From a virus: DNA of 46,125 bases. Shown piece by piece: positions 43-40,799 of this stretch. The notes under the pieces were generated by a model. It was not told where the DNA came from, ran no database searches, and saw only the letters and a program-made list of their open reading frames with translations. The position numbers and the translations under genes are program-made. The DNA lies in IMG/VR virus record IMGVR_UViG_3300010379_000870, positions 1-46,125 of that record. One strand, written 5' to 3'. Numbering within the stretch: position 1 is the first letter of the stretch; every line of letters starts with the position of its first letter.

Positions 43-2190
43 GTGGAAAGTAAGACCCCCCGCGCGCGAATTCCGCGTGAGGGGTCGCTGGGCATTCTTC
101 GGACTGCGCAAGATAGGCTAAACCTCACGTGGATTCTGAGCAGGATCCGGCGAACGGCGGTCCAGGGCGAAGCCGGCATTAGCGACGGCGCGCTGCTGGA
201 GCGCTTTGCCGCGACCGGCGACCAGGCTGCGTTCGAGCTGCTCGTCTGGCGGCATCAACGACTCGTATTCGGCGTCTGCCGGCGCATTTTGCATGATTTC
301 CACGATGCCGAGGATGCCCTGCAAGCCACCTTCCTGATCCTCGCCCGCAAGAGCCAGAGCATCAGCAAGCATCAGGCCCTTGCTGGCTGGCTGTACCGGG
401 TCGCCTATCGCGTGGCCCTGTCGGCCCGGCCCGCGCGCGAGCGCGGAGAGGCGCAGCCGCTCGAGGCCGTGGAAGAGGTTCCCGCTCCTGCCAGTCAAGA
501 GGTGGGCGTGGAGCAGCAAGAGGTGCGCGCCTTCGTGGACGAAGAAGTGAGCCGGCTGCCGGAGAAACTGCGCACCGCAACGGTCCTCTGCTACCTCGAA
601 GGCAAGACCGTGGACGAAACTGCTCGCCAGCTCGGTTGCCCGCGCGGCACCGTGGCGAGCCGGCTGGCGCGGGCACGTGAACGCCTCCGCGTACGCTTGA
701 CGCAGCGCGGCCTGATGTTGAGCGCGGCTGCCGTCGTGGCTGCTCTTGGCGAGGCTGGCTCGTTCGCGAGGGCATCCGACAGCCTGGTCTCTCAGATCGT
801 GCGCGCCGCGAGTCCGGCCGGCCAAGGTCCAGGGCCGGCCGGCGTTTCCGCCCGAGTCTCGAAATTGACCGAGGAGGTTTTGAGGATCATGTTCATGCAG
901 AAAATCACCAAAGCGGCCGTGGTCTTGATTGCCTTCGCCGCGACATTTCTTCTGGGGAGCGGCGTAGCGCTGCGCATCTACGCCGGCGGCATGGAGCAAC
1001 CAGCGGCCGTGGCCGACGATCCGCCGCAGGCTCAGCCTGCGAAGGATCAGGCGAAGGAGCCTGCGCCGGGACCGTTGCCGGTCATCGTCCAGAAACCAGT
1101 CTGGCGCGAGTTCACGCCGTTTCAGGATTTCACGGGCAGATTAGGGCTGCGTTCGCAAGTGGATGTCCGCTCGCCCGTGGCAGGCGTAGTCAAGAATGTC
1201 TTCGTCAAACCGAACGCCACGGTCCGCAAAGGCGACCGGCTGTTCGAAATTACACGCATGAAAGATCTAAATGTGTTGCTTCAGGCCGAGGATGTTCTTG
1301 CAAAAGAAGAGCGGAAGCATCAACTAGCCACGAGTAAATGGCGCGATGCCCAAAAAGCTTACGAAGCAGGCAAGATTAGTGCTCAGGACTTGGCTCAAGC
1401 CGCCACGGAAAACAAGCTCGCTGAGGCAGCGGAGGAGAAGGCGCGCATATCTATCGGCCAAGCCCAGCTCAAGATGGCGCCGATCAAGGTCGTCTCGCCG
1501 CTAGACGGTCAGGTAGTCCGTTTGAATTGTAGCACCGGCACGGGGGTCGACGAGGATTCCTTGCAAAGCTATGTCTTTGTGCAGATCGCAACCGTCGACA
1601 CGATCACCTTCAGTTTCCACATGGACGAGCGCACTTACCTGCAATATCGCCGGCTGCTTGCCAAGGGTGAGGTAAAGGGCGTGGGCACCACAGTCAAAAC
1701 ACAGTTAGCGGACGAAGAAGGCTACCCAGGCAAAGCGGTCATCACCGGCTACGACTCACAAGTCAATGCCCAGACTGACACGATTGGCATTCATTGCACC
1801 TTGCCGGACCCTGAGCATATCTTGCTGCCCGGCATGTTTGTGCGCGTGCGCATGCCGGTAGGCAAGGCTTCCAAGGTGCTGGAGATTCCGGAGGAGTGCC
1901 TTCATAGCGATCAAGCCATGTCTCCTGGCAGCCAACTCAGCCTTCCAGGAGGCAATAAAGCAATGAACCCGGGTATGGGCATGCCGGGCGGAACGGGCGG
2001 AAATCCAGTGTCGCACTGGGTCTGGGTCGTGAACGATATGAACAATGTGGAGCGGCGCGACGTCGAACTAGGCACAATGGATGGCGACATGCGCGTGATC
2101 AAGAAGGGCCTGAGCCCCGAAGACCGCGTTATCGTCCTTTTGCCCAAGGCGCTGCGCGCAGGCGAGCGGGTCGATCCGCAGACGAAGTAG
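43..2190 (+). CDS. ECF sigma factor fused to a membrane-anchored HlyD/RND-type periplasmic adaptor
   Basis: Residues about 45-125 match sigma-70 region 2 (DAEDALQATFL core) and about 165-220 match region 4 with its helix-turn-helix (DETARQLGCPRGTVASRLAR). A hydrophobic segment lies at about 288-312. The part after residue 340 is a membrane fusion protein: lipoyl-like half motif (VRSPVAGVVKNVFVKP), an alpha-helical hairpin and a beta-barrel. The sigma domain would be cytoplasmic and the adaptor would lie across the membrane. ECF sigma factors with C-terminal membrane and sensor-like extensions are typical of Planctomycetes; pairing with an efflux adaptor suggests coupling of envelope state to transcription (inference). 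The GTG start is tentative: the frame is open to the window edge. An in-frame ATG at 889 is preceded by GGAGG and GAGG, so separate translation of the adaptor is possible. Confidence 0.85.
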   Translation: MESKTPRARIPREGSLGILRTAQDRLNLTWILSRIRRTAVQGEAGISDGALLERFAATGDQAAFELLVWRHQRLVFGVCRRILHDFHDAEDALQATFLILARKSQSISKHQALAGWLYRVAYRVALSARPARERGEAQPLEAVEEVPAPASQEVGVEQQEVRAFVDEEVSRLPEKLRTATVLCYLEGKTVDETARQLGCPRGTVASRLARARERLRVRLTQRGLMLSAAAVVAALGEAGSFARASDSLVSQIVRAASPAGQGPGPAGVSARVSKLTEEVLRIMFMQKITKAAVVLIAFAATFLLGSGVALRIYAGGMEQPAAVADDPPQAQPAKDQAKEPAPGPLPVIVQKPVWREFTPFQDFTGRLGLRSQVDVRSPVAGVVKNVFVKPNATVRKGDRLFEITRMKDLNVLLQAEDVLAKEERKHQLATSKWRDAQKAYEAGKISAQDLAQAATENKLAEAAEEKARISIGQAQLKMAPIKVVSPLDGQVVRLNCSTGTGVDEDSLQSYVFVQIATVDTITFSFHMDERTYLQYRRLLAKGEVKGVGTTVKTQLADEEGYPGKAVITGYDSQVNAQTDTIGIHCTLPDPEHILLPGMFVRVRMPVGKASKVLEIPEECLHSDQAMSPGSQLSLPGGNKAMNPGMGMPGGTGGNPVSHWVWVVNDMNNVERRDVELGTMDGDMRVIKKGLSPEDRVIVLLPKALRAGERVDPQTK

Positions 2191-2415: not shown

Positions 2416-3099
2416 ATGCTTCTCCTGAAGTTGTCGTTACGACTCGCGTTCGGGCTGGTCTTCGTCGGTAGCCTGCTCTTCCTTCCGGCCGGCACGCTCG
2501 ATTGGTGGCGCGCCTGGGTCTACCTGGGTGCGATGCTCTTGCTCATGCTGGTGGGCAGCGCCTGGTTTTACGCGTACAGCCCAGGCCTCCTCGAAGAAAG
2601 GCTCGGCGCGCCCGTGCAGCGCGCGCAGCCGTTGGCGGACAAGATTGTTTTGCTTTTCTATTTCACCTTCTACATGGCCTGGCTGGCCTTCATCCCACTC
2701 GACGCATTCCGCTGGCACCTGCTGGAGAAGCCCGGCGAAACGGTCTCCGCGCTTGGGCTGGTGCTGTACTTTTTGGGGATGGGCCTCGTCTTCCTGGCCC
2801 TCAAAGAAAACGCCTTCGCCGCTCCCGTGGTCAAGCATCAAGAAACCAGAGGGCACAAGGTAATCGACAGCGGCGTCTACGGCGTGGTCCGTCATCCGAT
2901 GTATGCAGCATTCCCACCCATCATGGTAGGCACATCGCTCTGGCTGCAATCGTACGCCGCGATCGCGATGGCGGCGTTGCCATTCGGAGCGATAACCGTG
3001 CGCATTCTCCTCGAGGAAGCATTCCTGCGCCGCGAGCTGCCGGGGTATGAGGAGTACATGCGCCGCGTGAAGTGGCGGGTGCTGCCGGGGGTTTGGTGA
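2416..3099 (+). CDS. Isoprenylcysteine carboxyl methyltransferase-like membrane protein
   Basis: A 227-residue polytopic protein with about five hydrophobic segments. The C-terminal half has the hallmark of the ICMT/PEMT-type methyltransferase family: VYGVVRHPMYAAF near residue 157 followed by a hydrophobic helix and EEAFLRRELPGYEEYMRRV, which form the S-adenosylmethionine and substrate pocket in that family. In bacteria, members methylate small lipophilic substrates or have unknown targets; the substrate cannot be read from sequence. Length is normal for the family. It is a stand-alone gene between the sigma/adaptor fusion and the prophage edge, and probably the last clear host gene on this side. 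Confidence 0.85.
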   Translation: MLLLKLSLRLAFGLVFVGSLLFLPAGTLDWWRAWVYLGAMLLLMLVGSAWFYAYSPGLLEERLGAPVQRAQPLADKIVLLFYFTFYMAWLAFIPLDAFRWHLLEKPGETVSALGLVLYFLGMGLVFLALKENAFAAPVVKHQETRGHKVIDSGVYGVVRHPMYAAFPPIMVGTSLWLQSYAAIAMAALPFGAITVRILLEEAFLRRELPGYEEYMRRVKWRVLPGVW

Positions 3100-3299: not shown

Positions 3300-3311
3300 A
3301 TGTACGTACAT
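3300..3311. promoter_or_regulatory. Palindromic operator candidate upstream of the RHH/kinase operon
   Basis: ATGTACGTACAT is a perfect 12-base palindrome about 60 bases before the first gene of the operon. A second palindrome, TGTGCGCACA, lies at 3355-3364 just before the start codon. Ribbon-helix-helix proteins commonly bind short inverted repeats in their own promoters, so autoregulation by the first gene is a plausible inference. Confidence 0.35.
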
Positions 3312-3337
3312 GATAGTGGATGTGAAATGGCGATCCG

Positions 3338-3366
3338 TTGACTTTTTATTAAAATGTGCGCACAAT
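3338..3366 (+). promoter_or_regulatory. Sigma70-like promoter for the RHH/RuvC-like/kinase operon
   Basis: TTGACT at 3338-3343 and CACAAT at 3361-3366 are separated by 17 bases. The palindrome TGTGCGCACA (3355-3364) overlaps the -10 element. The predicted start of transcription falls at or next to the ATG at 3373, so the first message could be leaderless. Confidence 0.4.
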
Positions 3367-3372
3367 ATCAGA

Positions 3373-3567
3373 ATGGAAGACAAAAGAGAACCGGGACGGC
3401 CGCCAGTCGGCGAAAAAGCCCAGAATGCTAGGCTATACGTTCGTGCCGTCGATTCAGAAAAAGAGCTGCTCGAAGATGCCGCACGTCAAGCGGGCATGAC
3501 ACTTTCCGACTGGATTCGCGACCGCCTTACTAAAGCTGCTCGTCGCGAACTGAAACGCTATACGTGA
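3373..3567 (+). CDS. Ribbon-helix-helix (CopG/DUF1778-like) DNA-binding protein
   Basis: A 64-residue basic protein. The pattern is a basic N-terminus (GRPPVGEKAQNARLYVRAV), a beta strand, then two helices with the turn QAGMTLSDWIRDRL, as in small CopG/Arc-type repressors and antitoxins. The frame extends upstream to an ATG at 3310, but the 3373 ATG fits the promoter position and the conserved fold. It is the first gene of an operon: 16 bases separate it from the RuvC-like gene. Likely role: dimeric DNA-binding regulator of the operon, or antitoxin-like partner (inference). Confidence 0.6.
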   Translation: MEDKREPGRPPVGEKAQNARLYVRAVDSEKELLEDAARQAGMTLSDWIRDRLTKAARRELKRYT

Positions 3568-3583
3568 CTGGAGGAACCGCCCC

Positions 3584-4063
3584 ATGCGCGCAATCGGTTT
3601 TCGGGCCGAACCGACCGTCGTCCACTTTGCCATCGTCGAGGGCACAAGAGATCGCCCAGTGGTGTTGACTAGGAATAAGTTCGCTGCGCCCAAGACTTAC
3701 GACGATGCCGACCAACTCGTTTGGTATCGAGAGAAAGTGCGTGGAATTATTCAGAACCACAGCGCGGACGTTGCTGGCGTTCGTTTCCCAGAAGCGAGAT
3801 CTCAGTCGGCTGGGACTTCGAGCGCTATGCGTCGCCTGCGGATCGAGGGCGTAGTAATGGAGGCCGCGCGGTCACTGGCCATCCCAATCAAAGCTGCTGG
3901 TGGACTTCAGCATATTCGGGCGAAATTGGGGATGTCTCATTCTCCAAAGGAATACATGGCTGGTGACAGGGAAGTCCGCGGCGTTCAGCTCTCGGACCAC
4001 CCAAAGCAGATGCAGGAGGCAATTCTGATTGCAACAGCAGCTCTCGACGGAGACAGCAAATGA
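3584..4063 (+). CDS. RNase H-fold, RuvC-like protein of unknown function
   Basis: A 159-residue protein resembling RuvC/RNase H-fold domains: a first strand (RAIGFRAEP) with a possible acidic residue E9, a second strand ending in E70 (VAGVRFPE), and a final helix QEAILIATAAL that resembles the closing DALA-type motif with E145. The classical first aspartate is not present, so nuclease activity is uncertain. The RBS GGAG lies upstream, and the stop codon overlaps the kinase start (ATGA). The strict coupling to an RHH protein and a kinase suggests a single functional unit. The fold assignment is by eye. Confidence 0.5.
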   Translation: MRAIGFRAEPTVVHFAIVEGTRDRPVVLTRNKFAAPKTYDDADQLVWYREKVRGIIQNHSADVAGVRFPEARSQSAGTSSAMRRLRIEGVVMEAARSLAIPIKAAGGLQHIRAKLGMSHSPKEYMAGDREVRGVQLSDHPKQMQEAILIATAALDGDSK

Positions 4064-5133
4064 GCACGATTGCCATCTGCAATTTTCAGTACTTCAAGAT
4101 CAAAGAGATCGGCCGCGGTAATTTTGGAGTAGTTCACCTAATCGACGATCCGCAACTTGCTGGCCAGTTCGCGGCAAAAGAAATACCGTGCGCAAGCTTT
4201 CCGAACGGCGCCTTCGAGACTTACTATGCGGAAGCCCAAGCGATGCATGCTTCTGCTTGCCCCCACGTCGTCAAGATTCGCGCCGCTGGAAGAAACACAG
4301 ACTATATCACTCTTATAATGGAGCACTACAAGAACGGATCGCTCGAAGGCAGAATTCGGTTTAACCCACTATCACCCCTTGATTCGATCCACGTCGGTCA
4401 AGATATGCTGATTGGTCTGGCCGCAATTCATCGCAGCCAGATCACTCACTTCGACATCAAGCCTTCCAATGTCCTTTTTGACGATCAGGGGCGTGCCCTG
4501 GTTGCCGACTTCGGACAAGCGCGCAGAATTGGGAAGAATGGCTTCGCCAATGCGCCAGGGATGTACCAGTGGGGGCGACCACCGGAAGCAGTAAGCGCAT
4601 TCGCAGGTAACCAACTTTCAGACGTGTACCAAGTCGGGTTGACCTTATACCGAGCTGTGAATGGGGAGGCGTTTTACAAAGAGCAGGCCACTCGTTATCC
4701 AGTGAATACAGCAGAAGGCCAGGCAAAGCTTGAACGTGCAATCATAACGGGCAAATTCCCCCAAAGGAACGCATTCCAGCCGCATGTGCCGGACGGCTTA
4801 CGACGCGTCATCCGCAAGGCATTACGAGTCGATCCGGCTAGAAGATACCAAAACGCTGACGATTTCGACGCTGCCCTTGGAAAGGTAAATCCTGCGCTAA
4901 ACTGGATTATGACAAGAAAGCAGGATGGCAATACACGATGGGAGGCTAGCCGGGACCGGCATGCCTCGCTTATCGTCGATCTTCTTCAAGAAGCTGGTAG
5001 TTATGAAGTCGAAGTCCGCAGTGTCTCAGGCGGTTGCACCAGGAAGAAGCAAGAAGGGTCGCTTTGGAGAAAAGGCATGTCCGCTGACGAGGCGGACTTG
5101 CATCTTCAAGAACTTTTCACTTCCTTGCCTTAA
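4060..5133 (+). CDS. Hanks-type serine/threonine protein kinase with a C-terminal extension
   Basis: A 357-residue cytosolic kinase with all core motifs: glycine loop GRGNFGVV (18-25), ATP lysine K40, catalytic loop HFDIKPSNVLF with D132, K134 and N137 (HFD replaces HRD), DFG at 150-152, an APE-like PPE at 174-176, and D188 in SDVYQVG. The kinase core ends near residue 280. About 75 further residues form a small alpha/beta-looking domain without recognised homology. There is no transmembrane segment or PASTA/WD40 sensor, unlike most planctomycete kinases. It overlaps the RuvC-like gene by 4 bases. The GC content looks lower than the terminase region. HRD-to-HFD replacement removes the arginine that usually contacts a phosphorylated activation loop, suggesting control by a partner rather than by loop phosphorylation (inference). 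Confidence 0.85.
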   Translation: MSTIAICNFQYFKIKEIGRGNFGVVHLIDDPQLAGQFAAKEIPCASFPNGAFETYYAEAQAMHASACPHVVKIRAAGRNTDYITLIMEHYKNGSLEGRIRFNPLSPLDSIHVGQDMLIGLAAIHRSQITHFDIKPSNVLFDDQGRALVADFGQARRIGKNGFANAPGMYQWGRPPEAVSAFAGNQLSDVYQVGLTLYRAVNGEAFYKEQATRYPVNTAEGQAKLERAIITGKFPQRNAFQPHVPDGLRRVIRKALRVDPARRYQNADDFDAALGKVNPALNWIMTRKQDGNTRWEASRDRHASLIVDLLQEAGSYEVEVRSVSGGCTRKKQEGSLWRKGMSADEADLHLQELFTSLP

Positions 5134-5308
5134 TCGGCTGCGTATATGTACCAGTGGACTGCCAGCGGGTGCCCTTGTTGGCCAGTTTCACCGCATCGAT
5201 TCGCTCATCCACACAATGTTTACAGTATGGATTTTGAGCGTAGCCAGCTTCAGAGACAGCCATCTCGCGGCGGCAATACAAACAGCGGCGAACGATTTCA
5301 AATAACAT
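5117..5308 (-). CDS. Small zinc-ribbon protein
   Basis: A 63-residue protein with CLYC near the N-terminus and CKHC about 21 residues later, a C-x2-C / C-x2-C zinc ribbon. The ATG at 5308 is preferred over one 12 bases upstream because GGAGG (complement of 5314-5318) sits 5 bases before it. It converges on the kinase gene and overlaps its 3' end by 17 bases. It is the first minus-strand gene at this edge of the prophage. Function unknown. Confidence 0.55.
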   Translation of the reverse strand: MLFEIVRRCLYCRREMAVSEAGYAQNPYCKHCVDERIDAVKLANKGTRWQSTGTYTQPIKARK

Positions 5309-5774
5309 GGCAACCTCCACGCCCAGCCGTCCTTAACTTGGCGTGACAGAAAGGCGACTCGCTCCAAAATTCCGCAGCACCAGCTGACAAAAAGCCCCCC
5401 CAGAAGTGCCCGGCGGAGCTTCAGATAGGATTATCGTCAAGTAGCCCAGCTGAAAATCACCATTGCCCTTGACAAATCATAACGGTCAGCTGCCAAAAAT
5501 CAACCCCAAAACTGAACCAGTGTTCACGAAATAGAAAAGCTAGGCGTTACAACCATTACGCTGGGATCAGCTTGACTTGACGCAATTCGGGCACAATGAA
5601 TTTGGGCGTCTTGGCGCTTCCCATGCCAAATTGTGTTTTCTACCCTTCTTGTAACTTGTCAAACTGTACCACTAGCGATAGAGCATAGGCGAGCTTAGTG
5701 AAACTCATCATCAGCAGATAGACCGCGTCAAGCACATTTTGTAGCAGCCCTGCCACTGCCACATCGCGTTCCCA
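5309..5774. other. Gene-poor stretch at the left edge of the prophage
   Basis: No convincing gene. It is richer in A/T than its neighbours and contains several stray TTGACA/TTGACT boxes. On the minus strand a 22-codon ORF (5556-5624) reads MGSAKTPKFIVPELRQVKLI plus two residues and follows, in the same frame, another short ORF that ends at a TAG. This could be a remnant of a longer gene. An attachment site might lie here but cannot be identified without the right end. Confidence 0.4.
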
Positions 5775-7328: not shown

Positions 7329-7369
7329 GTGGGCTTCCCTCAAGAATCTGGTCGTAAGCAGCGAATTTT

Positions 7370-7460
7370 CGTTTAACCGCGAGCCAGCGGCGAGCGCGTG
7401 TGCAGAAGGGAAAGAGTGTCCTGTCTGTACACGCGCTCGCCGCTGGCTCGCGGTTAAACG
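7370..7460. repeat. Long palindromic repeat element (36-base arms)
   Basis: Arms 7370-7405 and 7425-7460 are complementary at 35 of 36 positions, with a 19-base loop. The core is TTTAACCGCGAGCCAGCGG. The same unit occurs at 13497-13531, 13592-13627 and, inverted, 13647-13682. It lies between terminase small and large subunit genes and would fold into a strong hairpin in the message. Positions 7520-7560 hold a second repeat type built on CGCCCCTAGCCCC-like words. Confidence 0.9.
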
Positions 7461-7556
7461 AGCCGCCGCACGAAGTGGGGGAGGAGCGAGAAGAACATCG
7501 CTTGCGCACCTCACGTTTTCCCAACTTTCTCGCCCCTCGCCCCTACTCCCCAGCCC

Positions 7557-8021: not shown

Positions 8022-8032
8022 TTTGTCTTCCT

Positions 8033-8118: not shown

Positions 8119-9228
8119 TCAGGAACGAAGGATGCCCCACGCCATCGCGTCGTCGCGGTTAGCGGGCCCAATGTACTCGTAACTGTGACTGATGCGCTTC
8201 GTGCTGCGCGTCCGCTGCATCAGTTTCGAGTGCGAGCGTGCCGCCAAGGAAGGCCGGCGGATCATGCGCCACAACGGCGAGCGTGCCCGGTGCTGCGCAT
8301 AGCCCGGATGGCTGGTCGTGCTGCGGTACGGTTTGCCCGTCGCCTTGAAGACGCCGGCAACATATTCAGCGAGAGCGCTGCCTATGCCAACGCCCTGGAA
8401 ATCGGGCAGGCAAACCGTGCGATGCTCGCGCCAGCCTGGGCTGTGCGGGTGCGGGAAAGGCAACACGGCGCAAAAGGCCGCGGGCGCGCCGCGAACCAAC
8501 GCCACGAAACATTTGGCGGCCGGGTGCAGTGCGCCGCTCAGATAATGATGGTCCTTGAAAAGCGGCCACGCCTGACGACGCACGCGGGCGATTTCCAGCT
8601 CGATGGCGGGACGACGCCGAAGACGCCTCCGTTCCATGGCGCCGGTGTGCGGCTGGAACACCCAATCGGGATCGAGCCAGTCGATGACATCGTAATGGCA
8701 GGTGACGGCCACAAACTTCTGGTTGCGGCGGCGTATCGCTCTGGCCAGTGCCGCGGAGCCAATCTGGGCGACCGTGCGATCGATCACGGACGTGAACTCG
8801 TCCACGACCGCCAGCCTTGGTTTCTCGGCCAGCGTTCGCGCCATGGTCGCGCGGAATTGTTCGCCTTTGGAGAGCACGCGGTACGGCCTGACCCACGACG
8901 GCGGCGAGCTGAAGCCGACCGAGCTGAGCAGCTCGACAATCTCCTTGATGCCCAGGGCAGCGGGAAAACCGTCGAGAAGCGAAGCGTCGGCCGGCCAATC
9001 CCAGCCGGAGACGATGGCGTCGCCAAAAACTTCGCGCGCGATCGTGGTCTTGCCGGAGCCGCTGGGGCCGACGATCAGGCCGATGTTCCAGGAATCGGGC
9101 AGGTCGAAGTCCACCTCCCAGCGTTGCCCGCTGCGCTGGCTGGGCGGCAAGTCGAACAGGCCTTCCATCTTCAAAACCCGTGGCGTGCGCTGCACCGGGC
9201 ATTCCCTCACGATAGTAACGCGCGGCAT
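8119..9228 (-). CDS. ABC-type ATPase fused to a GNAT acetyltransferase-like domain (COG2401-like)
   Basis: A 369-residue protein. Residues about 20-200 are an ABC nucleotide-binding domain: Walker A GPSGSGKT (54-61), signature-like LSKGEQ (119-124), Walker B RLAVVDEF (138-145) and switch H178. Residues about 205-330 look like a GNAT fold, with the acetyl-CoA loop QGVGIG (278-283) after a strand TVCLPDF. No membrane segment, so not a transporter. The order ABC then acetyltransferase matches COG2401. GGAGGG lies upstream of ATG at 9228, and the start overlaps the ParB-like gene by 22 bases. Location between ParB and terminase suggests a DNA-directed role, possibly base modification in the manner of Mu Mom, another GNAT-fold protein (inference). 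Confidence 0.75.
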   Translation of the reverse strand: MPRVTIVRECPVQRTPRVLKMEGLFDLPPSQRSGQRWEVDFDLPDSWNIGLIVGPSGSGKTTIAREVFGDAIVSGWDWPADASLLDGFPAALGIKEIVELLSSVGFSSPPSWVRPYRVLSKGEQFRATMARTLAEKPRLAVVDEFTSVIDRTVAQIGSAALARAIRRRNQKFVAVTCHYDVIDWLDPDWVFQPHTGAMERRRLRRRPAIELEIARVRRQAWPLFKDHHYLSGALHPAAKCFVALVRGAPAAFCAVLPFPHPHSPGWREHRTVCLPDFQGVGIGSALAEYVAGVFKATGKPYRSTTSHPGYAQHRARSPLWRMIRRPSLAARSHSKLMQRTRSTKRISHSYEYIGPANRDDAMAWGILRS

Positions 9229-9758
9229 GTCAGGCCCTCCGCTTGGAGCCGCAGCAAGAGCTCGTCCTGGTGCTGCTCCGAGTTGCACTCGATCAGGATG
9301 CAGAATTGTTCGGGGATAACGTCGGCAACGGTTTTTGGTTCCAGCGGGAGCAGGCCATGCTGCTCGGCGAGGCCGGTGAGCATCTCTTGCAAGGCGGCAT
9401 CACCTGTGTCGATATCGTGCAGAAGGGCGTCCAGCTTGTCGCGGTCGGTGCCGGCGAGCGCGGCAAGCGGGTCGATGGTGGCCAGCAGCTTGGCAGCCTC
9501 GGCTTCGTCCACGTCGAGGATCAGAACCGGGACGAGAGCGTCGGGCGTAGTCTCGGCGCGCAGGTGGCCGTCGATCAACATGAGTTGGCCGCCAGCGATT
9601 TCGCGGGCGAGCAGGGCGTCGGCAAAGCCCACTTCCGCGAGCATGGCACGCAGGGCATCTTGCTGTGCCTGCGGATGTGTCCGCCAGTTCTTGGGGTCGG
9701 GCAGCAAATCGGCCGCACGCACGCGGCGCAGCTCGCGAATGCGGTCGCGAATCGTCAT
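9207..9758 (-). CDS. ParB/sulfiredoxin-like nuclease-fold protein
   Basis: A 183-residue protein starting MTIRDRIRELRRV after AAGGAGA. Motifs of the ParB N-terminal domain are present: VRAADLLPDPKNWRTHP, then REIAGGQLMLIDGHLRAE (GxxxLIDGHxR box) and VPVLILDVDEAEA. The C-terminal 60 residues lack a clear HTH. Phage ParB-like proteins act in DNA binding, partition or as cofactors of DNA-modification genes. It overlaps the HTH/receiver-like gene by ATGA and the ABC/GNAT gene by 22 bases. A longer in-frame extension upstream to 10622 is antisense or out-of-frame shadow of neighbours and was not used. Confidence 0.85.
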   Translation of the reverse strand: MTIRDRIRELRRVRAADLLPDPKNWRTHPQAQQDALRAMLAEVGFADALLAREIAGGQLMLIDGHLRAETTPDALVPVLILDVDEAEAAKLLATIDPLAALAGTDRDKLDALLHDIDTGDAALQEMLTGLAEQHGLLPLEPKTVADVIPEQFCILIECNSEQHQDELLLRLQAEGLTCRALLS

Positions 9759-10318: not shown

Positions 10319-10383
10319 GTGTGAGGTTTCCTCCTGAATGTTGAGTTGCGATTCTGCCAGCCGGCGGCCGCGGGCAGGCTTCT

Positions 10384-10411
10384 CCCCTCTCCCGGAGTAC
10401 CGGGAGAGGGG
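10384..10411. repeat. Perfect 12-bp inverted repeat
   Basis: CCCCTCTCCCGG and its complement flank AGTA. It belongs to the same type as the larger element at 12984-13092. It may act as a terminator or be a mobile palindrome. Confidence 0.8.
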
Positions 10412-12915: not shown

Positions 12916-12983
12916 GGGGGGCCTTTCGTTGGAAGGATTGCGAATTTCAACAATGAACGAAGGACTAAGAGCCTTTCGGATAG

Positions 12984-13092
12984 CCCCTCTCCCCCGTACT
13001 CGGGGGAGAGGGGCTGGGGTGAGGGGGCAGGACTTTCCCAGGCAAAACCCCCTCACCCCCGGCCCCTCTCCCCCGAGTACAGGGGAGAGGGG
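12984..13092. repeat. Double palindrome rich in C and G runs
   Basis: First hairpin: CCCCTCTCCCCCG (12984-12996), TACT, complement at 13001-13013. A second related hairpin lies at about 13063-13092, and the two units are inverted copies of each other around position 13038. Such GAGGGGCTGGGGTGAGG-type elements look dispersed; related shorter units are at 10384-10411. No gene lies in 12916-13111. Confidence 0.85.
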
Positions 13093-13318: not shown

Positions 13319-13496
13319 GAGCATGGTCCTTCGACACAGGTCCGCGCTGGACCATGGACAACGGGTTACGAATAAAAGTCCTTGGCCCTTGGCATTGTGC
13401 GTGTCAGGCTGTCAGGTTCGCCACCAGTCCAGTCGGACAGGCAGGCCTTGTCAGGTAGTCAACGAATGAGAAATGATCGCGCTATCGTGGAGAATT

Positions 13497-13682
13497 CGTT
13501 TAACCGCGAGCCAGCGGCGAGCGCGTGTACATAAGGCAAACAGCCTCCCCATGGTCAGGGAGCGAAACCAATCGCGCAGGTAGTGAGAATTCGTTTAACC
13601 GCGAGCCCACGGCGAGCGCGTGTACAGAAGGGAACCAGCGTCCCGATTGTTCACGCGCTCGCCGCTGGCTCGCGGTTAAACG
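13497..13682. repeat. Three copies of the long palindromic repeat unit
   Basis: Units at 13497-13531 (+), 13592-13627 (+) and 13647-13682 (inverted). The last two form a hairpin equivalent to 7370-7460. Both plus units are preceded by AGAATTCG. Small differences (GCCCACGG for GCCAGCGG) show divergence. The 13319-13751 gap has no other recognisable feature. Confidence 0.9.
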
Positions 13683-13751
13683 AAAATTGGCTGTGAGGAC
13701 GCGTAAGGCGTTCCCAAAATGATCAGAGAGCGGATGCCACGAGAAAACGGG

Positions 13752-39374: not shown

Positions 39375-39657
39375 ATGCGCTACTTCGATCGCACCGGCCG
39401 GCCCATCTCCAAAGAACAATGGGCCGCGAAATTTCGCGATCGCAAGTACGCCATCATTCGCCGACACGCCGGCGGTCTGCATCGTCACCAGTTGGGTCGG
39501 ACTCCTCGGCGATCCGGAAACGCGCTCATTGTTATTCCTGGTGCAACGTCAGCGGAAGCATGTCGGCCGGCCATGGGAGACGCTTAACGAAACCTGGCAC
39601 GCCACGGAGAAAGAGGCGCGTGCGGAACACGACCTGTTGGAGAGGGCGAGCCTATGA
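39375..39657 (+). pseudogene. Phage gene split by a +1 frameshift
   Basis: The first frame starts ATG 39375 (MRYFDRTGRPISKEQWAAKF) and runs to about DRKYAII near 39458. The sense then moves to the +1 frame: ADTPAVCIVTSWVGLLGDPE, TRSLLFLVQ, then TWHATEKEARAEHDLLERAS, ending TGA 39655-39657. That stop overlaps the ATG of the next gene (ATGA), as expected of a coupled gene pair. One base near 39459 appears extra, or lies in error. Intact length would be about 93 residues. Its normal function is unknown. Confidence 0.65.
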
Positions 39658-40799
39658 AATACACCACAGTCTTCCTCGTACTGTTCGCCTTGCCCGCGCT
39701 GGCACCAGCCCAGTGTCCGGGCGGGCACTGCGCGCCGTGGGGCCAACCGCCCTCGGTGCAGTTCGCACCGCCCGCCGTCAGCGAATACAACCCATGGCCC
39801 CTCGCCCCTCGCCCCTCTCCTCAAATCCCTCGTGTCGATCCGCGCTGCGTTGCTTGCAGCGTGCGCATTGAGAACTATCGTGGCAATCTCGTGGAATCGG
39901 GCAGCGGCACCGTCATTGCCAGGGAAGGATCGTATGGCTGCGTGATCACCTGCAAACATCTCTTCTCGGACGGCGTCGGACAGCTGATAGTCACCTTTCC
40001 GGACGGTCAACGCCTGCAAGCATCGTATCTCGGCAGCGACAGCCAAGCCGACCTCGCAGCGGTCGCCATCCAGGCCGGCGCAAGCATACCCATGACAAGC
40101 GTCGCGGACAGCCCGATTGCGCGCGGCGAACAGGTGTACCAAGTCGGCTATCCGCATGGTCACGGGCCGGTGCCGCGGGGCGGGCAAGCGCTTGGCCTCG
40201 TCGGCCGAACCGGCAGCGCCGCGGTGCTCGGCCTCAGTTTCCCGGTCCAGCAAGGCGACAGCGGCAGCGGCGTCTTCCGCGCAGCCGACGGGGCGCTCGT
40301 CGGCGTGCTCTGGGGCAGCGATGGCCGCACCTCCAGCGTGACCGGCGTTGCCGATATTCAGCGCTTTCTCGATGAGAAATGCTTTCGTTGGTTTCCGCGT
40401 CTGCGGCGACCTCAGCAACCGTCATCTCCCGTTTCTCCTTCCACTCCTCCTTCCGCTCCTGGGCCGGTGGGACCAACTCCTCCTGTTCTTCCCCCCTCTG
40501 GTCCGTCACCAACACCGGCTCAGGAGTTCTCTTCCGCGCTGGCCGCCCTGGACAAGGTCAGCAAGCAGCTGGACGCCCTGCAAACGCAGGTGAACGATTT
40601 GAAGAATCGCCCCTCAGCCAAGGACGGCAAGGTCGGCGTGGTGGGTCCCGCTGGTCCCGCGGGCCCACCCGGTCCTTCCGGCAACACGGCGGACCTGAAC
40701 CCGCTCCTGAAACGCATCGAAGCACTCGAACAACAATCAGCAGCAAACGCGGGCAAGATCCAGCGGATACGGATTGTCCCCGCAACCAATAACCCCTAG
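39654..40799 (+). CDS. Secreted trypsin-like serine protease with Pro-rich linker and collagen-like tail
   Basis: A 381-residue protein. Signal peptide at 1-19 (VFLVLFALPALAPAQ), likely cut after APA. The protease domain (about 65-245) carries a catalytic triad: H102 in VITCKHLF, D133 in QADLAAVAI, S203 in QQGDSGSGVF. A proline-rich linker (about 250-290), a helical coil, a short GPAGPAGPPGPSG collagen-like block (331-343) and a second coil follow. Positions 39796-39831 of the DNA carry a CCCCTCG repeat translated as PLAPRPSPQIPR. It probably acts outside the cytoplasm; target unknown. Confidence 0.75.
   Translation: MKYTTVFLVLFALPALAPAQCPGGHCAPWGQPPSVQFAPPAVSEYNPWPLAPRPSPQIPRVDPRCVACSVRIENYRGNLVESGSGTVIAREGSYGCVITCKHLFSDGVGQLIVTFPDGQRLQASYLGSDSQADLAAVAIQAGASIPMTSVADSPIARGEQVYQVGYPHGHGPVPRGGQALGLVGRTGSAAVLGLSFPVQQGDSGSGVFRAADGALVGVLWGSDGRTSSVTGVADIQRFLDEKCFRWFPRLRRPQQPSSPVSPSTPPSAPGPVGPTPPVLPPSGPSPTPAQEFSSALAALDKVSKQLDALQTQVNDLKNRPSAKDGKVGVVGPAGPAGPPGPSGNTADLNPLLKRIEALEQQSAANAGKIQRIRIVPATNNP

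Follow-up and report, generated by a model that had tools for sequence, protein, structure and literature searches.

A candidate abortive-infection module that pairs an Stk-type kinase with a catalytically dead RuvC-like protein

A stretch of viral DNA (a virus record of 46,125 bases, analyzed at its full length and referred to here as the window) encodes a RuvC-like protein that has lost its catalytic residues and, directly behind it, an Stk-type Hanks kinase. The two genes form a conserved unit that occurs in phages, plasmids and defence islands of at least three phyla. Many bacteria and phages carry the two genes together, and these are therefore very probably parts of a single anti-phage machine, with the kinase as its only previously known component; a role in anti-phage defence or exclusion in the broad sense is what we infer with good confidence. 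The specific reading that we favor, with a probability of roughly 0.55, is abortive infection by a mobile module carried on prophages, whose kinase would be gated by a nuclease-dead paralogue of RuvC translated immediately ahead of it. Before infection, a complex with the RuvC-like protein, or some other control by it, would keep the kinase inactive. The RuvC-like protein, which keeps a junction-binding fold, would most likely sense the development of a foreign phage, through branched replication or recombination DNA or through a phage protein. Once released, the kinase would phosphorylate cell proteins and stop growth before the phage matures. This reading draws on gene order, linkage, fold, residue losses and intact kinase residues as observed here, and on the literature for abortive infection in the case of phage 933W.

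Three co-directed reading frames on the + strand (3373–5133) encode, in this order, an RHH protein, the RuvC-like protein and the kinase. The features of the locus, in window coordinates, are as follows:

3300–3311, no strand: palindrome ATGTACGTACAT, exact; candidate operator 1, upstream of the −35 element
3338–3366, + strand: promoter-like site TTGACT-17-CACAAT from a consensus scan; predicted transcript start at ATG 3373
3355–3364, no strand: palindrome TGTGCGCACA, perfect; candidate operator 2, overlapping the −10 element
3373–3567, + strand: RHH (NikA/CopG-like) DNA-binding protein, 64 aa from ATG 3373 (Pfam NikA-like)
3584–4063, + strand: RuvC-like gene, catalytically dead, 159 aa (phrog_3875, AF2, Foldseek, residue mapping)
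4060–5133, + strand: Stk-type Hanks kinase, 357 aa (Pkinase, phrog_2361, invariant catalytic columns, AF2)
4903–5130, + strand: C-terminal domain of the kinase, residues 282–357 (alignment, AF2 secondary structure)
5117–5320, − strand: convergent zinc-ribbon-like protein, 67 aa, CxxC...YCKHC; overlaps the 3' end of the kinase gene

The first two genes are separated by exactly 16 nt, the stop codon of the RuvC-like gene and the start codon of the kinase gene overlap by exactly 4 nt (ATGA), and a GGAGG motif (3570–3574) lies ten bases 5' of the RuvC-like start. A first-pass annotation had described a tight operon with this gap and overlap, lower in GC and placed at the edge of a prophage, and the ORF map reproduces the spacing to the base. 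GC content at 3–5.5 kb is 52–56%, versus mostly 58–66% nearby, which suggests recent acquisition of the segment. Bacterial-type genes, among which we count the sigma-70/HlyD fusion ORF described below and a PEMT/ICMT-type methyltransferase gene (2416–3099), flank the three-gene set on one side, and opposite-strand terminase genes on the other.

Several further features of the window were recorded. A single ORF at 43–2190 (+) combines sigma-70 (ECF-type) regions with an HlyD-type membrane-fusion domain, and is bacterial rather than phage in character. Adjoining the terminase genes, the ORF at 8119–9288 (−) joins an ABC-type ATPase and a GNAT acetyltransferase in one protein, which matches phrog_11143 (function not assigned) at 5e-107. 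Repeats of 66–109 nt that are 79–88% alike occur in three copies (7353–7461, 13490–13683), and further repeats of 40 nt at 8026/17014 and 14149/15774. REP-like, GC-rich palindromic repeats of 31 nt (CCCCTCTCCC...GGGAGAGGGG) are likewise present in three copies (12983–13092, 10381–10411). Close to the right end, an ORF for a trypsin-like protease (39654–40799, +) may be a host or morphogenesis gene.

The RuvC-like protein alone has no match in Pfam, and PADLOC gave none for it; it matches phrog_3875, described as 'RuvC-like', at 3.4e-12. The 12 best matches of its AF2 model (pLDDT 92.1, pTM 0.88) in a Foldseek search of the PDB are all RuvC, with E-values down to 1.8e-10, and the top matches include the proteins of D. 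radiodurans, T. thermophilus, P. aeruginosa and E. coli. The relation is visible by fold comparison only: a profile of the family found nothing among the sequences of solved structures. The hhalign comparison of the family with a single RuvC is weak, and gives a P-value of 6.6e-4 with four RuvCs. Mapping of the catalytic positions onto three RuvC sequences showed that the position of D7 is Arg in 64/64 family members, that of E66 is Arg in 62/64 (Lys or Cys in the other two), that of D141 is Glu in 61/63, and that of D138 is variable. The window protein has R7, R67 and E145 at the D7, E66 and D141 sites. The fold of the RuvC resolvase is thus present, whereas the catalytic acids D7, E66, D138 and D141 are not kept. 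Seven residues (G5, R7, P36, L45, E70, R84 and I87) are identical in 62/62 members.

Both the RuvC fold and the replacement of the canonical first aspartate had been proposed in the first-pass annotation, which nevertheless called the protein nuclease-like. That label is misleading: a second catalytic acid, E66, is also Arg across the family, which makes it improbable that the kinase controls a nuclease. An active RuvC-like nuclease switched by phosphorylation, as envisaged there, could draw on the fold and on E145, which keeps an acid near one catalytic site, but two of the three core catalytic acids are Arg in essentially the whole family. We therefore consider an active nuclease very improbable, and the protein is almost certainly no nuclease. 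The conserved substitutions at D7, E66 and D141 indicate a retained non-catalytic role. As judged from the alignment, the active site is rewritten in one consistent way, in a protein that is constrained and is not a resolvase; it may bind DNA or the kinase.

The kinase matches Pfam Pkinase (2e-35) and phrog_2361 (8.3e-49). Its catalytic residues are intact (K40, E58, HFD 130–132, K134, N137 and D150FG), and the columns of K40, E58, H130, D132, K134, N137, D150 and G152 are invariant in the alignment. HFD in place of HRD is common to nearly all members of the family. At the C-terminus, the 75 additional residues make up a small domain conserved in the family, with five strands and one helix in the AF2 model (pLDDT 84.8 overall, lower in this domain at about 57–82), in which W282 is invariant and W294 nearly so. 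The earlier description of a soluble kinase with HFD instead of HRD and about 75 additional residues was thus accurate.

The pairing of the two genes emerged from searches in both directions. The kinase family phrog_2361 led to loci in SPbeta-like phages, Mesorhizobium, Providencia, E. coli, Klebsiella, Novosphingobium and Sinorhizobium. In all of these except Sinorhizobium, a gene for a protein of 134–167 aa lies beside the kinase gene and overlaps it, with the exception of Novosphingobium, where the two are 32 nt apart as annotated. The RuvC-like protein of the window is homologous to this neighbor (pairwise E-values of 9e-8 for Mesorhizobium and 1e-5 for an SPbeta-like phage). In the reverse search, the query was an alignment of the RuvC-like protein alone, with which viral contigs and some 85,000 species genomes were scanned. 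The 83 distinct loci recovered come from Proteobacteria, one cyanobacterium and phages, and an Stk-type kinase is the next gene on the same strand in 83/83, mostly with an overlap of 1–17 nt; the kinase frame is broken in three of them (L055, L063 and L069). Pairwise distances of the RuvC-like proteins and of the kinases correlate at 0.93 over 60 distinct loci (0/2000 permutations), and by this measure the two proteins share one history. The co-occurrence of three families proposed at the outset thus stands for the RuvC-like/kinase pair and fails for the RHH protein, which was found with the pair in no other locus.

No RuvC-like neighbor was found beside the gut-phage, Streptomyces and Thermomicrobium kinases examined; since such partnerless kinases exist, the linkage characterizes the Stk-type family and does not extend to phage kinases in general. 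Members are rare: they occur in 3/291 genomes sampled for the cyanobacterial phylum set and, as clear cases, in 2/398 for the Pseudomonadota set, and each figure includes the genome used as the center. Weak profile matches in Pseudomonadota ORFs of about 700 aa were judged unrelated and discarded. When viral contigs were scanned with each of the four window proteins (RuvC-like, kinase, RHH and zinc-ribbon) in turn, or with an alignment of the window RuvC-like protein and that of the cyanobacterial locus L097, nothing was returned, and tblastn searches of phages and plasmids with the RuvC-like protein were equally empty, so the window's own branch is rare in these collections. Its RuvC-like protein and kinase are only about 22–35% identical to the Stk branch.

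A defence setting had been suggested for the locus. The best characterized relative is the abortive-infection kinase Stk, and some relatives lie in restriction-modification (RM) operons or beside DarTG. The neighbors, which were picked by eye and carry no enrichment statistic, include type I RM genes, whose operon encloses the pair in Novosphingobium and in one small-genome bacterium from the cyanobacterial phylum set; at other loci, the pair adjoins DarT/DarG or follows a dGTPase gene. At L109:6025–7503 and L007:4492–6032, pairs of a divergent branch, whose kinases have HND instead of HFD, lie inside type I RM operons. In lambdoid phages, the pair is found in the immunity region, between cI and the phage early genes.

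These positions between cI and early genes and inside RM operons, together with that behind an RHH gene in the window, would also suit a regulatory switch, in which the RuvC-like protein senses DNA damage or junctions and the kinase phosphorylates a repressor (the RHH protein here, CI-type or RM genes elsewhere), so as to control lysogeny or a defence operon, much as CapK/CapS or KKP do. CapK/CapS shows that such logic exists, but CapK resembles the anti-sigma-factor (GHKL) kinases and is unrelated. Moreover, no repressor partner is conserved across the loci, and stk transcription in phage phi24B is unaltered on induction, staying at the level of the lysogen (PMC4651098). We regard a switch of this type as improbable.

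Abortive infection by the kinase gated by its RuvC-like partner, the reading that we favor, takes its functional precedent from Stk of phage 933W, which is co-transcribed with cI and aborts superinfection by HK97 (PMC3564112, which cites Friedman et al. 2011). Stk has little or no activity before infection (PMC3681748), and this off-state needs an explanation. In the immunity region of phi24B, annotated as '933W-like', a RuvC-like ORF (1484–1945, 7e-64) overlaps stk (1939–2985), and a small basic ORF of 54 codons lies downstream. The deposited phi24B record annotates cI and stk only, besides cro and the operators; the RuvC-like gene between cI and stk (L128:1484–1945) is unannotated. In RefSeq versions of other such lambdoid phages, the gene upstream of stk is called 'RuvC-like Holliday junction resolvase'. 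The statement of the first-pass annotation that the components had not been described together therefore needs qualification: we found no paper that treats the RuvC-like gene and stk as one system, but the two already stand side by side in the automatic annotation of some lambdoid phages.

At nearly all loci, the kinase stop codon coincides with, or lies only a few bases from, the start of a gene for a strongly basic protein of 50–65 aa. The median net charge of these proteins is +7, an Arg close to their N-terminus is conserved, and the C-terminus bears an aromatic/hydrophobic motif. An example is L005:5990–6154, with equivalents in about 80 loci; they belong to phrog_4063 in lambdoid phages and otherwise to no family. 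Some carry a conserved Tyr and are possible substrates or inhibitors of the kinase. No such gene was found downstream of the window kinase, where only an unrelated ORF 12 nt on and the convergent gene are present, and this copy may therefore lack a part or be regulated in another way. Window-type loci, of which there are two cases only, may have as their third component the zinc-ribbon protein encoded by the convergent gene. The second case is the only close relative of the window RuvC-like protein, the cyanobacterial L097 (42% identical over the N-terminal two thirds), where a zinc-ribbon homologue (38% identical) occupies the same convergent position, overlapping the 3' end. L097 (1495–2139) is a deletion remnant, in which the N-terminus of the RuvC-like protein is fused in frame to the C-terminal domain of the kinase; it adjoins a Tn7-like tnsB/tniQ remnant, read from the sequence, and type I RM genes.

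A tentative extension of the favored reading is a widespread three-component antiphage system, in which a RuvC resolvase, turned into a non-cutting reader by the exchange of catalytic acids for arginine, would recognize the branched DNA or a recombination protein of the incoming phage and switch the kinase on, Stk of 933W would be the kinase subunit, known for long but described incompletely, and the third component (a small basic, RHH or zinc-ribbon protein) would be interchangeable. The missing third gene, the remnant state of L097 as the nearest relative, and the low GC as a sign of recent acquisition could instead indicate that the window carries decayed or chance accessory cargo with no present function in this phage. 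Against this, all three frames are intact, and the catalytic residues of the kinase and the family-invariant residues of the RuvC-like protein are kept; we think it quite improbable that the genes are mere cargo.

The RHH protein, proposed earlier as a CopG-like DNA binder, matches Pfam NikA-like at 1.3e-6, above the cut-off, and TacA1 exactly at the cut-off; the families matched include antitoxin and mobilization families. An alternative start at ATG 3310 would give 85 aa (3310–3567). However, the −35/−10 pair ends seven bases upstream of ATG 3373 and ATG 3310 precedes the promoter, so ATG 3373 is probably the start and the mRNA is predicted to be leaderless, beginning at this codon. The promoter call is weak on its own, because the region has 5 promoter-like sites versus 1.3 expected. 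Folding of the promoter region is no better than that of shuffles. The two palindromes noted earlier in the promoter are indeed both perfect. ATGTACGTACAT occurs once in the window, even allowing 2 mismatches, and TGTGCGCACA has a single perfect copy there. Their extended similarity makes both degenerate copies of one site, the second inverted relative to the first. This similarity is equaled in 10/5000 shuffles, yet 62/9195 window positions of the same geometry reach the score, and the palindromes are only moderately improbable. We lean slightly toward autorepression, in which the RHH protein would bind the two candidate operators and repress its own operon. No RHH relative was found beside other loci of the pair or in viral contigs, and the gene is private to the window among everything examined; it was rejected as part of the conserved system.

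An RHH-first operon with operator-like palindromes and short overlapping genes is also what a toxin-antitoxin system could look like, with the kinase as toxin, the RuvC-like protein as antitoxin and the RHH protein as autorepressor, maintaining the element with no sensing of phage. The tripartite HipBST is an analogous case of a kinase toxin whose small antitoxin is a separate protein, KKP is based on toxin-antitoxin components, and the RHH protein matches antitoxin and mobilization families as noted. The RHH gene is, however, not conserved with the pair, the kinase is of the Hanks type and not HipA, and the relative whose function is known acts when another phage infects. A module may serve both addiction and defence, but we judge a pure toxin-antitoxin function rather unlikely.

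If the kinase is gated by its RuvC-like partner, as we favor, a gap in the understanding of Stk could be filled. We found no explanation in the sources consulted for how Stk stays inactive and is switched on by an infecting phage, and a conserved, overlapping partner with a disarmed junction-binding fold is a concrete candidate for this switch. The analysis also defines a module of phages, plasmids and defence islands, and corrects an annotation, since phage records name the partner 'Holliday junction resolvase' although all proteins examined have lost catalytic acids. More broadly, it points to a reuse of DNA-repair folds in sensing infection.

Among known proteins, the RuvC Holliday junction resolvase resembles the window protein in fold (TM about 0.7), in length and in being alignable over its full length, and differs in its catalytic residues (D7 and E66 are Arg in the RuvC-like family, D138 is unconserved and D141 is Glu); since these residues were checked and are missing, we do not file the protein as a resolvase. 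PD-T4-6 and the MADS kinase MAD6 match the window kinase through the Hanks-type domain in their PADLOC models (E-values down to 2.5e-38), over the kinase domain only; to our knowledge, a RuvC-like partner is not part of either system. HipBST likewise encodes a DNA-binding protein, a small partner and a kinase in one operon, but HipT is a HipA-family kinase, HipB is an HTH protein, and no relation in sequence was found to the window proteins, which gave no HipA or HipB matches (the kinase matches Pkinase and the regulator RHH families). KKP (kinase-kinase-phosphatase) is, like the window module, a prophage-borne kinase defence module; it consists of two kinases and a phosphatase, with no RuvC-like protein mentioned. 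The closest counterpart is Stk of 933W, which is homologous to the window kinase from end to end, C-terminal domain included, at about 29% identity over 87% of the query. Stk-type modules, as seen in phi24B, have an overlapping RuvC-like gene (phrog_3875) upstream, as in the window. In lambdoid phages, the module follows cI and a DUF3024 gene and is itself followed by a basic gene of 54 aa, whereas in the window an RHH gene precedes the pair and a convergent zinc-ribbon gene follows it. Tyrosine phosphorylation and abortion of a superinfecting phage are features of 933W Stk from the literature. By its kinase and its partner, and with the small-gene feature absent, the window module belongs to the Stk module family.
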